Assembly (NCBI GenBank): GCA_010093515.1
Contig: MU001685.1
Location: 537,851-601,850 of the forward strand
Reading direction: 5' to 3'
Length of the DNA: 64,000 bases
From: Lineolata rhizophorae
Lineage: Eukaryota; Ascomycota; Dothideomycetes; Lineolatales; Lineolataceae
Below are positions 7,915 to 11,937 of this stretch, one piece after another; positions within the stretch are counted from its first letter, which is position 1, and each line of letters starts with the position of its first letter. The position numbers and the translations under genes were made by a program. The notes under the pieces are model-generated. The model worked only from the letters and a program-made list of their open reading frames with translations. It made no database searches and was not told where the DNA came from.

Positions 7915-9850
7915 ATGCGATCCTTCATCTCTGCCGCAGCTGGCATTGCGGCTTTATCTTTCCCATTTGTACATGCGCAGACTTTTACGGACTGTGATCC
8001 CACCCAAGGTATGTCCTGATCTATGAACTTGCTCCCTCGTCAATGTGTCGGCTTGCTTATTCTTTCCTGGAATAGAGGACTGCGACAATAACCCTGGCCT
8101 CACCGAAAGCCCGCTTGTCTGCGACTTCGCGGCCGACGGCGAGTCTGCTTTCCAGGGCTGGACCGCGACCGCAGGTGCCCTCACTTATGGCTCCGACGGC
8201 GCCGAGTTCACCATCAACCAGCGGGGAGATGCCCCCACCATCCAGACCGACGGCTACATCTTCTTCGGCCGCGTCGACGTCACCATGAAGGCGGCCCCCG
8301 GCACCGGCATCATCAGCAGCATCGTCCTCCAGTCGGACGACCTGGACGAAATCGACTGGGAGTTCATCGGCGGCGACAACGCCAACGTCCAGAGCAACTT
8401 CTTCGGCAAAGGCAACACGACGGTGTACAACCGCGGTGGCGTGCACCCCGTGGCCGACGCGCAGGGCACGTCGCACACGTACAGCGTCGACTGGAGCCAG
8501 GAGTCGATGAAGTTCCTCATCGACGACGCCCTGATCCGCGAGGTGCCCTTCGACGCCGACATCGCGCTCGGCGGCGCCAACTACCCTCAGACGCCCTGCA
8601 ACGTGCGCATTGGCATCTGGGCCGGCGGCGACCCGGACAACAGCCAGGGCACCATCGACTGGGCCGGCGGCGAGACCGACTACGCCCAGGCGCCCTTCAC
8701 CATGACGGTCCAGAAGGTCGAGATCACCAACTACAACCCGGCGGGCGCGTACGAGTGGACGGACCGGTCCGGCTCGTGGGAGAGCATCGAGCTCGTCGAC
8801 GCGGTCGAGGGCGGCGACGGCGAAGGCGAGGCCCCGTCTAGCGCTCCCGCGGTGCCAGAACCCACCGGCAGCGAGACGCCCTCCCCGTCATCTGTGGCTC
8901 CAGAGGGCCCGTCGCCGACCTATGGTTACGATGACGACCAGTACGGCCAGCCCGGCAGCAACAACACCGGCTCGCCGGACGATGGCTATCCTCCGTACGG
9001 CAATCCCGACGGTAACCCGCACGACGGGCCTCACGACGGGCCTCACGACGGGCCTCACGACGGCCCTCACGACGGCCCTCACGACGGCCCTCACGACGGC
9101 CCCCACGGCAACCCCCACGGCCCCGACTTCCCCTTCGGCGACCGCCCCGACTGTACCGACACCCCCTCGGACCTCACCACCACAATCCGCATGACCGGCA
9201 CCATCGAAACCATCACGACGGTGACCACGCCCCCGCCCGCGTCATCGTCGCCCGCCTCCCCGCACGCCCCCGACGTCTCCACCGCCCGGGAAACCAGCGT
9301 CCTCACCGTCACCGACTGCTCCTGCGACGACGCCGTCCCGTCCCCGACCCCGACCCCGAGCCCGCCCCCGCACAGCTCGGGCCCGAGCTCGCCGCCCGCC
9401 ATCTCGTTCTCCTGGCCGCCCCTGGTGTCCGAGTCGTACGCGGCGCCCTCGCCGCCGCCCGTGTCGTCGGCGCCGCCCGCGTCGTCGGCGCCGCCCGTCG
9501 AGTCCGCGCCGCCCGCCGAGTCTGCTCCGCCCGTCGAGTCCGCGCCGCCCGCCGAGTCCACGCCGCCGGCAGCCCCTCCGGCCGAGTCCAGCCCCCCGGC
9601 CGAGTCGCAGCCTCCCGCCGCCACCCCGCCACCGTCGTCCTTCTCCACCTTCGTCACGTCGTTCCCGCTGGCGCCGCCGACGCCGACGGGCGAGGCGGGG
9701 GCGTCGGTGACAGAGACGGAGACGGCGGCGACGGCGTCGGCGCCGGCGGAGTTTACTGGAGGGGCGGCGGCGGGTGTTGGTGGGGGGAAGATGCTGGGGG
9801 GTGGTGGTGGGGTTTTGGCGGTTGTGGTGGGGTTGGTGGCTGTGATGTAG
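7915..9850 (+). CDS. GH16 CRH-type GPI-anchored cell-wall transglycosidase
   Basis: CRH-family enzymes (Crh1/Utr2 in yeast) act outside the plasma membrane and link chitin to beta-glucan in the fungal wall. Exons: 7915-8008 and 8076-9850, giving 622 residues; the intron has a GTATGT donor and splits a Glu codon. Residues 1-21 are a signal peptide (hydrophobic, ending VHAQ). The catalytic domain spans roughly 35-245 and carries the GH16 motif DEIDWEFIGGD near residue 122, with both glutamates and the intervening Asp present. Residues about 255-590 form a Ser/Thr/Pro-rich stalk that includes seven tandem His-Asp-Gly-Pro units and several Pro-Pro-Val/Ala-Glu-Ser repeats. The C-terminus is Gly-rich and then hydrophobic to the last residue, as expected of a GPI attachment signal. 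No chitin-binding module is visible. The gene converges on the AA9 gene with U1 in between. Confidence 0.93.
9020..9103 (+). repeat. Seven tandem 12-bp units coding His-Asp-Gly-Pro
   Basis: Seven in-frame copies of a 12-base unit (CAC GAC GGN CCN) sit in the stalk of the GH16 protein. The first three use GGG for Gly, the next four GGC, and the last Pro codon is CCC instead of CCT. The block structure suggests expansion by slippage or unequal exchange within the array. Confidence 0.97.
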
Positions 9851-10271
9851 GGGATAGCGGGTTTAATTATTTTATGGGGGGGGGCTAGGTGGCTAGAGGG
9901 GCTTTTTTCTCTCTAATTCTTTTTACTCTTTTGGCTTTGTGCATATTTCTATCGAGGCTTGATGGTTTTGTTCAGGTGGTTACTCCGTAGCGGAGAGGGA
10001 GTAGACTATTATGACGGTTGGCGGCGAGATCATAACAACTGTAGACTTGATACCAATGCATTAGACGGACTGCGGGTCTGGTCATTGTTCTTTTCATACC
10101 TGGCCTTTGCCCTCGCCATGGAAGTTATCGTGAACTAAGTCTGAGGCAGGCGCAGCTTCTACGAGTCCCAGCGATCCGCTCACAGCCACGGCGCGCTCTT
10201 CGCCCGCGCGGAAAGGTCGGTGCGCGGCGCCGACTTCTCCCGGAGCCCCGGCCGGCCCGGCCCCGGCCAGG
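9851..10271. other. Intergenic region between GH16 gene and U1 promoter
   Basis: The G-rich sequence just after the GH16 stop continues to about 9890 and is followed by T-rich sequence that probably carries the polyadenylation region. From about 10190 the sequence is very GC-rich and leads into the U1 TATA box. No gene seen. Confidence 0.5.
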
Positions 10272-10278
10272 TATAAAA
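10272..10278 (+). promoter_or_regulatory. TATA box of the U1 snRNA gene
   Basis: TATAAAA lies 59 to 53 bases before the first base of U1, within a GC-rich context. It is followed by a C/T-rich leader (about 10306-10330) that ends directly at the U1 5' end. This is the only TATA element suitably placed for U1. The distance is longer than the roughly 30 bases usual for polymerase II TATA boxes, so the true transcription start or the factor used is uncertain. Confidence 0.6.
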
Positions 10279-10330
10279 ACCCTTCCGGGCCCGCTCCAAC
10301 CGTCCTCTTCTTCTTCTTCTTTTCCTCTTC

Positions 10331-10490
10331 ATACTTACCTTGTTGGGGTCACCGCGATCAAGAAGGCGGTCGACCTGCGGGGCTGCCCTGCATTGCACAG
10401 CGCGGCGGCGGCCCTGTATGAGTTGGTTTCGGCCAACTCTCCGGCGCAATTTTTGATGTCCAAACCAGGAGCTGCTGCGCGGCTCGTCGC
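10331..10490 (+). ncRNA. U1 spliceosomal snRNA
   Basis: U1 snRNA base-pairs with the 5' splice site at the start of spliceosome assembly. The RNA begins ATACTTACCTTG, the invariant U1 5' end. Stem-loop I follows: ACCGC (10351-10355) pairs with GCGGT (10366-10370) around GATCAAGAAG, the loop bound by U1-70K and identical to the budding-yeast loop as I recall it. Stem-loop II presents ATTGCAC in its loop (10392-10398), the U1A/Mud1 site. Stem-loop III is a 7-bp stem, GAGTTGG/CCAACTC (10420-10426 with 10433-10439). An Sm site, AATTTTTG, lies at 10448-10455. A final stem, GAGCTG/CGGCTC (10469-10474 with 10480-10485), closes the RNA. The 3' end near 10490 is an estimate. The window's introns use GTAAGT, GTATGT and GTGAGT donors that pair with this 5' end. 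Confidence 0.95.
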
Positions 10491-10934
10491 TTTTCATCAT
10501 TCTGTCCTGCCTTGTGCAGGTGCTTGAGGAAGACGTGGTGCCGACGCGTGCGGTGTGCGTAGGATGCTCCGGCAAGATGCGTCGGCGTTTGTAGAGGCTT
10601 GGGCTGGGAATACATGTTTGGCCTTGGGCCTTTGTACGTATGTGCTACCCGAAAATTTTTGACGCCGTGGTGGCCACTGGTGGCTAGGCTTGCGAAGCTT
10701 GTGCTGGTGGCTCGACATCCAGCGGCCGTCGCACCCTTCAGCACAAGGTTATCGTACGACCATCTATTAAGTCTCGGCACGTCATGTATCCTTAGCGAGC
10801 TGTTGAACTGCAAATTTGTACAAAAGTATGCACAGGCTCTTCTGTGAGGCAAAGCAACGTCATGCAACATTTCCACGCTTCCATCGCTTCCACTGCCCAC
10901 GTTACCCACCAACCCCCTTCCTCCTCATCATCGT
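10491..10934. other. Region between U1 and the AA9 stop codon
   Basis: This holds the unmeasured U1 3' flank and the 3' UTR of the AA9 gene, which is transcribed towards it. Open frames on both strands show no domain. No terminator or 3' box is recognisable with confidence. Confidence 0.5.
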
Positions 10935-11937
10935 CTAGCAAGTGAAGGTATCAGGTCCGGGGATCTCGTAACTGCTAAACTGGCCCCAAAGGTTGAACTT
11001 CACGCCCGGGTCGCTCCCGGAGTAGATGCCGGGGATACTGTACGTCTGCGGCGCGGCTGAGCCGCCGTTCGTGACGTGGATCTGCGCGCACTCCATATCT
11101 GCGGGCGGACGAGCGAAGCCGAAATCGTCAGAAGACAAAGTTCGAGTCGAGCAACAGCGACAGGAACACCGGCCGCAAACACAGCAAAGGAAAAAAAAAA
11201 AAAAATAAAATAAAAGCAGGTCAGAGCCAACTTACAAAACTGCGCGCCGGGATAATTGCTCGCGGCGTGCAGCGCGATCAGCTCCCCTCGCAACAAGTAA
11301 TCCCCTTCCTCGATGCACTCCGGGATCTTGACCGTGACCTTGCCCTCATTGTCGATGAGCTTGTCGACGGCCCAGACGCCGCTGTCGTAGCCGTCCTCGT
11401 AGATCTTGAACCAGCCGCTCTGGGGCGCCGAGCCGGTCGCGTCCGCCACCTTGGCCATGTACACCATGACGGGCCCGTGGTGCGACTCGTCGATGATCAT
11501 GCCCGTCTGGAAGTCCGTGTCCAGCGTGTGCGCCCACTGCAGCGTGAAGTCGGCGCCGGCCGGCACGTCGAGCACCGCGTCCGACACCATCACGATGTCG
11601 TTGGGCGGGCCGTTGCACGTCATGGAGGAGCTAGTCACGTCTTGGATGGGCTGCCGGTTTTGCGAGACCGCGTTTCGGTTAGCCATCTTCCTTTCCTCTT
11701 TTTACGCTCTGGCCTCATCTCTTGGCATGGATGTGTTTGTTGACTGCTCGTAGTAGAGTCGCGCCAAAGGGAATTCCGGGTGGCAGAGATTCATCGGGAA
11801 ATACATACGCCATCGTACGTCGGCAGCCGCATGTACTTGTACCGCTCCTCCATGGCCCCGTTCACACCAACCCGCTGAAAGATCGTGTGCGCGGATGCCG
11901 CACCGGCAAAGAGGAGGGCAAAAGCGTTGGTCTTCAT
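10935..11937 (-). CDS. AA9 lytic polysaccharide monooxygenase
   Basis: AA9 enzymes are secreted copper monooxygenases that cleave cellulose and related beta-glucans oxidatively. Exons on the minus strand: 11937-11809, 11650-11236 and 11098-10935, giving 235 residues. The signal peptide is MKTNAFALLFAGAASA, and cleavage exposes His-17 (HTIFQ) as the N-terminal copper ligand. The second ligand lies in DESHHGPVMVYMAK (His near 101). The second-sphere residues keep the family spacing in [21 protein letters not shown]: His, then Gln nine residues on, then the axial Tyr two further on. The last Tyr is rebuilt across intron 2. The mature chain of about 219 residues is a catalytic domain only; no linker or CBM1 follows. 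All features expected of an active enzyme are present. Substrate and regioselectivity cannot be read from the sequence. Confidence 0.95.

Follow-up and report, generated by a model that had tools for sequence, protein, structure and literature searches.

Positions 10270–10537 of the window, as we call the whole 64,000-nt stretch of DNA analyzed here, are best read as a U1 snRNA gene followed by a downstream 3′-end module, and on the evidence of sequence and alignment we give this reading a probability of roughly 0.8. For the locus at 10331 taken by itself, assignment as a U1 snRNA gene appears nearly certain. A U1 gene had been proposed here from the letters alone (the sequence-only reading), and the proposal was borne out by a full-length match to the Rfam U1 model (RF00003), by compensatory changes among seven copies of the gene, and by a TATA element and a 3′ module that the locus has in common with other copies. 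A fungal U1 gene is ordinary; the 3′ module, together with variants of U2 found elsewhere in the genome, is the interesting part.

Identification of a U1 snRNA Gene in the Window

The RF00003 model aligned over its full length (1–166 of 166) to window positions 10331–10460 on the forward strand, with a score of 54.8 bits (E = 1.2e-12 on a local stretch of 1.2 kb, 6.6e-11 on the whole window). In a covariance-model search of the whole window, U1 was the sole Rfam family at E ≤ 0.5. The covariance-model check was thus passed at an E-value of about 1e-12, though under the cut-off curated by Rfam. This gathering score of 69.5 bits is a curation threshold rather than a biological feature, and as the window copy lies below it, a default Rfam scan of the window reports no match. 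A chance match in GC-rich intergenic DNA, for which only the sub-threshold Rfam score could be adduced, is already refuted by the E-value, by six paralogues and by the compensatory changes described below; with a probability that is practically nil, it is excluded for the window U1.

The gene lies between two CAZyme genes, in agreement with the sequence-only reading. Upstream is an open reading frame for a GH16 glycoside hydrolase (8045–9850, + strand; Pfam PF00722, E = 1.2e-43) and downstream, on the opposite strand, a gene for an AA9 monooxygenase (approximately 11000 to approximately 11937, – strand, start codon placed by eye; Pfam PF03443, E = 1e-38 for 11003–11686). The AA9 gene has two donor-like sites, GTATGT and GTAAGT (identified by eye), with which the U1 5′ end is able to pair, as any U1 would.

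U1 acts through base pairing with intron donors, through binding of U1-70K and U1A to two of its loops and through an Sm ring on its Sm site. In the window copy we identified the 5′ end, the U1-70K loop, the U1A loop, stem III, the Sm site and a terminal stem, all in the order claimed for them. The sequence TATAAAAA begins at position 10272. A TATA element (GGTATAAAAACCC; 10270–10294, +), with its TATA 59 nt upstream of +1, is followed by a pyrimidine tract (10303–10330, +) whose CTTC end stands directly before +1; both were recognized from the sequence letters. A pattern built from this TATA site occurs once in the window, where shuffles predict 0 occurrences. The 5′ end of the RNA, which includes the donor-pairing segment, was located by the RF00003 alignment at 10331–10341 (+; AUACUUACCUU). 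It reads ATACTTACCT from 10331 (the same 5′ end is also written ATACTTACCTT) and includes the donor-complementary stretch ACUUACCU at 10333–10340.

The body of the RNA comprises four helices, based on folds and on pair counts in an alignment of the seven copies. Helix H, formed by a 5′ strand at 10342–10346 (+) and a 3′ strand at 10441–10445 (+), is paired in 100% of cells and has one pair changed on both sides. Stem-loop I (10347–10375, +) contains the U1-70K-type loop GAUCAAGAAG (GATCAAGAAG) at 10356–10365 and has three such pairs, and stem-loop II (10376–10418, +), with the U1A-type loop AUUGCACAGC (ATTGCACAGC) at 10392–10401, has five. Stem-loop III (10420–10439, +) is paired in 100% of cells, with two pairs changed on both sides; this stem had been predicted, and its length in the fold is 8 bp, not the 7 bp proposed. 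The Sm site AAUUUUUG (AATTTTTG) is located at 10448–10455 (+), and a 7-bp terminal hairpin, seen in folds and poorly conserved, occupies the position of stem-loop IV (10469–10485, +). The end of the gene had been placed near 10490, but the conserved gene unit reaches to approximately 10537.

Seven U1 Copies in the Genome

An RF00003 search of the 31-Mb genome (48 contigs) yielded seven U1 places with scores of 54.8–65.1 bits and E-values, on one genome, of 7.4e-12 to 8.1e-15. Since 41 of 467 candidates were scored in this search, the U1 count is a lower bound: there are at least seven, of which the window copy is one and scores lowest. All seven lie under the RF00003 gathering score, so that a default Rfam scan reports no U1 in this fungus; as at least seven genes are missed here, the numbers of U1 genes counted in similar fungi may be in error. 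An exact search for the 12-mer ATACTTACCTKG gave eight places in the genome; six of these are U1 genes of the set, and the seventh copy (C10) has ATACTTACCTCG instead. A U1 pattern was found at 0 places in viral contigs and at seven in contigs of prokaryote genomes, the latter as pattern matches only.

The seven U1 bodies are 69.2–99.2% identical to each other, whereas their upstream and downstream flanks are 13–41% identical. In the alignment, 98.5% of 264 cells are paired, versus 92.8% in shuffles, and 11 of 38 pairs are changed on both sides, versus a shuffled mean of 3.9; neither value was reached in 500 shuffles. All four helices (H, I, II and III) add to this support. Controls in which the structure was slid along the alignment had 31–50% of cells paired. 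The number of further pair types was unexceptional (29 versus 26.9 in shuffles). This covariation rests on seven sequences, which are few, and the shuffles ignore their relatedness; every comparison is between copies inside this one genome. Similar bodies within unrelated flanks, the extent of pairing and the compensatory changes together indicate constrained U1 genes. The first ten bases, the loop GAUCAAGAAG, AUUGCAC in the U1A-type loop and the Sm site AAUUUUUG are invariant in all seven copies. As the copies vary in their bodies while donor recognition is unchanged, they give the impression of redundant U1 genes, not of variants with a new donor specificity.

The 5′ end, the U1-70K and U1A loops, the four-helix body and the Sm site all correspond to those of the RF00003 family. 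The copies differ from the family in their scores, all under the gathering cut-off, and in the stem-loop IV position, where the hairpin ranges from 7 bp down to very weak and is absent from one copy (C6), which folds into none. Multi-copy snRNA genes are not new in filamentous ascomycetes: Podospora anserina, which likewise has more snRNA genes than one per type, is credited with 14 snRNA genes in a table and with 12 spliceosomal RNAs in the methods of the same paper (PMC2441463, as excerpted).

The window copy could be silent or decaying, with working U1 RNA supplied by the other loci. Its RF00003 score is the lowest of the seven, and one base beside the Sm site is private to it (GGCGC, where all others have GGCGT or GGCAT). 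Its body is, however, 99.2% identical to that of the C4 copy, its functional elements and helices are intact, and both the TATA element and the 3′ module are in place. We therefore consider a silent copy unlikely, and favor a constrained gene at this locus.

A Shared Hairpin Module Downstream of U1, U2, and U4 Genes

A module of approximately 47 nt is located downstream of all U1 (7/7), U2 (16/16) and U4 (1/1) genes that were found, giving an alignment of 24 copies. It consists of two nested stems that form a bulged hairpin of approximately 14 bp. In the window copy, delimited by this alignment and by a model of the module (R1), it spans 10490–10537 (+), with an inner hairpin CCUGC-CUUGU-GCAGG at 10506–10520 and outer arms at 10490–10499 and 10525–10534. 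The R1 model scores 62.2 bits on this copy (E = 3e-13), which is part of its training set.

The inner stem, of 5 bp with a loop of 5–6 nt, is paired in 99.2% of cells across the 24 copies, and four of its five pairs are changed on both sides (CG/UA/GC at one pair, and UA/CG, GC/AU and CG/UA at the others). This covariation indicates that the module acts as RNA. The outer stem, 9 bp around a mismatch found in all 24 copies, is paired in 95.8% of cells and is mostly conserved in sequence, with one of nine pairs changed on both sides. When the two stems are taken together, the covariation score is 0.288, versus 0.181 in shuffles (reached by 0 of 500), and five pairs are changed on both sides, versus a shuffled mean of 3.3 (reached by 34 of 500). 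Folds of single sequences were not all exceptional (z = –1.07 for the window module, –0.70 to –2.90 for five copies folded). Given these folds and the sequence conservation of the outer stem, it is possible that sequence is recognized rather than the duplex. Conservation of the primary sequence is high in the module as a whole, for instance in TTTTCATCA and GAAGAAG.

Two other pairings were considered. An alternative outer helix (columns 11–16 with 39–43) shows changes to both partners in two of its five pairs, versus one of nine for the helix adopted, and was rejected with 80.8% of cells paired versus 95.8%. A possible helix between GAUG, which follows the Sm site, and CAUC in the module was noted by eye and dropped, as U4 has only the CAUC.

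Alternatively, mature U1 might be longer, at approximately 205 nt, and end with the module as its final stem-loop. The module is kept in all seven U1 copies, and is more constant than the stem-loop IV position. It also follows, however, the U2 and U4 RNAs, which differ considerably from U1 in length and architecture; this argues that it belongs to a class of genes and not to U1. A longer U1 accordingly seems quite improbable to us, and we retain the reading of a module beyond the mature RNA.

We scanned 225 kb of fetched sequence from 53 sources with the R1 model, so that the module count is a minimum. The scan gave 32 matches of at least 47 bits at 29 distinct places, 24 of which are the training copies and match by construction; the next best score was 14.5 bits. 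The five remaining places, with two more from smaller stretches, make seven new module places. In their inner stems 34 of 35 pairs are kept (counted by eye). A TATA element is present upstream of five of the seven (L030 at 2783–2829, L054 on both strands, L062 and L091); none was seen at the expected distance in L061 or in the 401 nt fetched of L092. None of the U3, U5 and U6 loci (one, one and two, respectively) matched the R1 model, and a pattern for the module occurred at 0 places in viral contigs. In searches of open-access literature we found no description of a single recurrent 3′ hairpin common to the U1, U2 and U4 genes of filamentous fungi.

A Proposed Model for 3′-End Formation

In the mechanism that we propose, window positions 10270–10537 would be a complete RNA polymerase II unit for U1, one of at least seven dispersed copies. 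The TATA element would set the start at 10331, and the RNA would pair with intron donors via ACUUACCU, present its loops to U1-70K and U1A and receive the Sm ring on AAUUUUUG. The bulged hairpin just past the mature RNA would serve in forming the 3′ end: an RNase III of the Pac1/Rnt1 type would cut the nascent RNA at the hairpin to leave the 3′ end of the pre-snRNA, and the cut would be the entry point for a 5′–3′ exonuclease, which would end transcription. We infer that the window copy is expressed, that polymerase II transcribes it, that cleavage occurs at the hairpin, and which RNase III acts there. Runs of T tend to stop polymerase III. As the Sm site holds a run of five T, and still longer runs precede the module in many U2 genes, transcription of the U1 and U2 genes by polymerase II is the more plausible assignment.

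The genome appears to encode an Rnt1-like RNase III. An open reading frame with a single RNase III domain (C12:5765–6442) matches Pfam PF00636 with an E-value of 5.5e-10 and has a weak, sub-threshold match to a dsRNA-binding domain. Its relatives in the PDB include 7dey, named RNase III (E = 9e-14), and 4oog and 5t16, named Ribonuclease 3 (E = 6.5e-12), which we take to be yeast Rnt1. At two further loci RNase III domains occur in pairs, a layout suggestive of Dicers.

In Schizosaccharomyces pombe, the RNase III Pac1 is reported to bind and terminate snU1, snU2, snU4 and snU5, and when it is kept out of the nucleus the polymerase reads through past the snRNA genes (PMC8421224). Hairpins with stems of 23–32 nt and small loops are predicted directly 3′ of each of these four genes, and the substrate of the enzyme (Pac1/Rnt1) is given as a duplex of at least 20 nt in which bulges are allowed (PMC8421224). 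Termination at the S. pombe snRNA genes is reported to need Dhp1 and not Ysh1 (PMC6195540). The L. rhizophorae genes resemble these in having a mismatch-bearing hairpin directly 3′ of several kinds of snRNA, in a genome with a fungal RNase III gene. They differ in that one recurrent hairpin of similar sequence is found at U1, U2 and U4, whereas the S. pombe hairpins are described, in the excerpted text (PMC8421224), by stem and loop length, and in that the module is shorter than the 23–32-nt stems and gave no match at U5 or U3. The module duplex, with its 9 + 5 bp interrupted by a mismatch and an internal loop, extends over approximately 20 nt per arm. By this analogy, the best reading of the module is a cleavage and termination signal, as for Pac1 at the fission-yeast snRNA genes, and cleavage by RNase III is our leading hypothesis, which we consider somewhat better than even.

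Another reader, for example a factor of the 3′-box type, is conceivable in view of the strong sequence conservation of the module and of the lack of a match at U5 and U3. In metazoans, many snRNA genes are closely followed by a short conserved element, the Integrator-dependent 3′ box. The module is likewise short, conserved and just downstream, but it is a covarying RNA hairpin and not a linear box. A sequence-recognized box analogous to that of metazoans, a terminator at the DNA level, or a site for an export or assembly factor would each fit the conservation of TTTTCATCA and GAAGAAG, the fact that a single pair among the nine of the outer stem has compensatory change, the shortness of the stem and the lack of a module at U3 and U5, both of which are reported Pac1 sites in S. 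pombe. On the other side, the covariation of the inner stem shows action at the RNA level, and the RNase III route is documented at the snRNA genes of another ascomycete (PMC8421224). We regard a module that is not an RNase III site as possible but less probable, and keep RNase III cleavage as the working model. The module provides a concrete hypothesis for snRNA 3′-end formation in such a fungus.

Promoter Elements of the snRNA Genes

All seven U1 copies have an element of the type TATA[AT]AAACCCC at 49–59 nt upstream of +1 (identified by letters in all, and additionally by place in five); in C10 it reads TATATAACCCC. Each of the seven also has a pyrimidine-rich stretch ahead of +1, which ends in TCTTC in six and in CTCCTC in C10. 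Across the genome, the TATA pattern TATAWAAACCYCYYMAAG with one mismatch allowed occurs at 21 places, versus 2 for the reversed control, and a longer motif from the upstream region (GAAACTTCNTCGRCAAARGTATAWAAA, three mismatches at most) at 22 places versus 0 for the control. The latter comprise 13 U2 genes, one U2-like locus (L062), the U1 gene on C13 and seven other places. The window U1 copy is absent from the matches of both genome searches, though its TATA part is present.

Several places with a promoter element gave no match to the module model in the stretches fetched: L040 (promoter near position 1500, – strand) and L087–L090 have the longer snRNA promoter motif, and L048, L051 and L056 the TATA pattern alone. 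The promoter class is thus wider than the module class. The last three loci have TATATAAACCCCTTCTAG in common, followed by similar sequence (GTGTAAGCTC...TCAAGGT), and form a repeat family.

Other snRNA Genes and Variant U2 Copies

Searches with Rfam models, of which all counts are lower bounds, found 16 U2 genes (14 at 99–153 bits and two at 48 bits), one U4, one U3 and two U6 genes, one of the latter under its cut-off. This second, divergent U6 (L027, 1501–1605, +; 43.6 bits against a cut-off of 44) has a one-base deletion after ACAGAGA and is possibly a pseudogene. The only U5 match found (L025, 1501–1607, –; 52.9 bits) keeps the loop GCCTTTTAC and lacks the snRNA TATA element and the 3′ module of the U1, U2 and U4 genes; as 46 of 1206 candidates were scored in this search, another U5 may be missed.

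The branch-site recognition sequence of U2 is GTAGTA in 8 of the 16 copies (one of them, L034, weak), GAAGTA in seven, and GCAATA in one (L035, weak). To our knowledge, GTAGTA is otherwise near-universal in U2; the base changed in the GAAGTA copies corresponds to the pseudouridine at human position 34. These seven copies (L019–L023, L031 and L032) score 101–131 bits, with the variant at approximately +30 to +45 from the U2 start. All seven have the longer promoter motif, and their modules, which are training copies, score 63–72 bits. The stem of the recognition loop, its constant U-U mismatch not counted, is 93.3% paired across 15 copies; the sixteenth, L034, was omitted for its poor alignment. 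The covariation score of the stem is 0.206, versus 0.080 in shuffles (reached by 1 of 500), and two pairs are changed on both sides, a number reached by 221 of 500 shuffles. Promoter motif, module and stem conservation lean towards function of the GAAGTA variants. We found no description of GAAGUA U2 variants in searches of open-access literature. If these copies are expressed, branch-site recognition by U2 would be less uniform than usually assumed.

GAAGTA predicts pairing with branch sites of the CTTAC type. In approximately 231 kb of sequence from the same genome, intron-like patterns with RCTAAC (13 observed versus 3.7 expected) and RCTGAC (8 versus 4.7) exceeded expectation, while RCTCAC (1 versus 3.65) and RCTTAC (1 versus 3.05) did not, and there was no excess of CTTAC branch sites. 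With looser patterns, CTAAY occurred 78 times versus 54 expected and CTTAY 40 times versus 56. These counts come from a crude pattern test with 20 simulated sets and not from mapped introns; they give no support to the use of CTTAC-type branch sites by the GAAGTA U2, and weigh against function of these variants.

Further RNA Loci With the Module

The module is a simple mark for finding snRNA-type genes in such genomes, and has already flagged several unclassified RNA genes here. A more far-reaching proposal is that a single 3′ hairpin, transferable, covarying and conserved in sequence, sets a genome-wide class of snRNA genes to which the window U1 belongs, including Sm-type RNAs outside Rfam and a working GAAGUA U2. 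We put this forward tentatively, as a doubtful but possible extension; if true, this fungus would have more than one kind of U2 snRNP.

L061 and L062 appear U2-like by eye, each with a recognizable 3′ half and a module and with a degenerate 5′ half. Neither has an Rfam match at E ≤ 0.5, and both are probably U2 pseudogenes.

The locus L030 (2783–2941, –) has the layout of an Sm-type RNA of approximately 112 nt, with a TATA element, a long 5′ hairpin, an Sm-like AACTTTTTGG, a 3′ hairpin and the module; it lacks a U5 loop, and no Rfam family matched it at E ≤ 0.5. L054 carries two divergent loci. That on the reverse strand (1061–1257, –) has a U1-like TATA element, an Sm region GGCATAATTTTTGATGTCC and a module of 47 bits; its 5′ part, a hairpin followed by GGGTAAGTTGG, is not that of U1, and no Rfam family matches it at E ≤ 0.5. 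That on the forward strand (1501–1967, +), which overlaps L082, appears as an RNA gene of approximately 350–400 nt with the snRNA TATA element and a module of 61.9 bits. An RNA gene of approximately 600–650 nt may be present at L091 (26–782, +), with the snRNA promoter motif, a module of 62.1 bits and no Rfam match at E ≤ 1. At L092 (316–359, +), a module of 51.2 bits follows a short sequence that resembles a tandem repeat (GGTGTGTGGATAGTC...).
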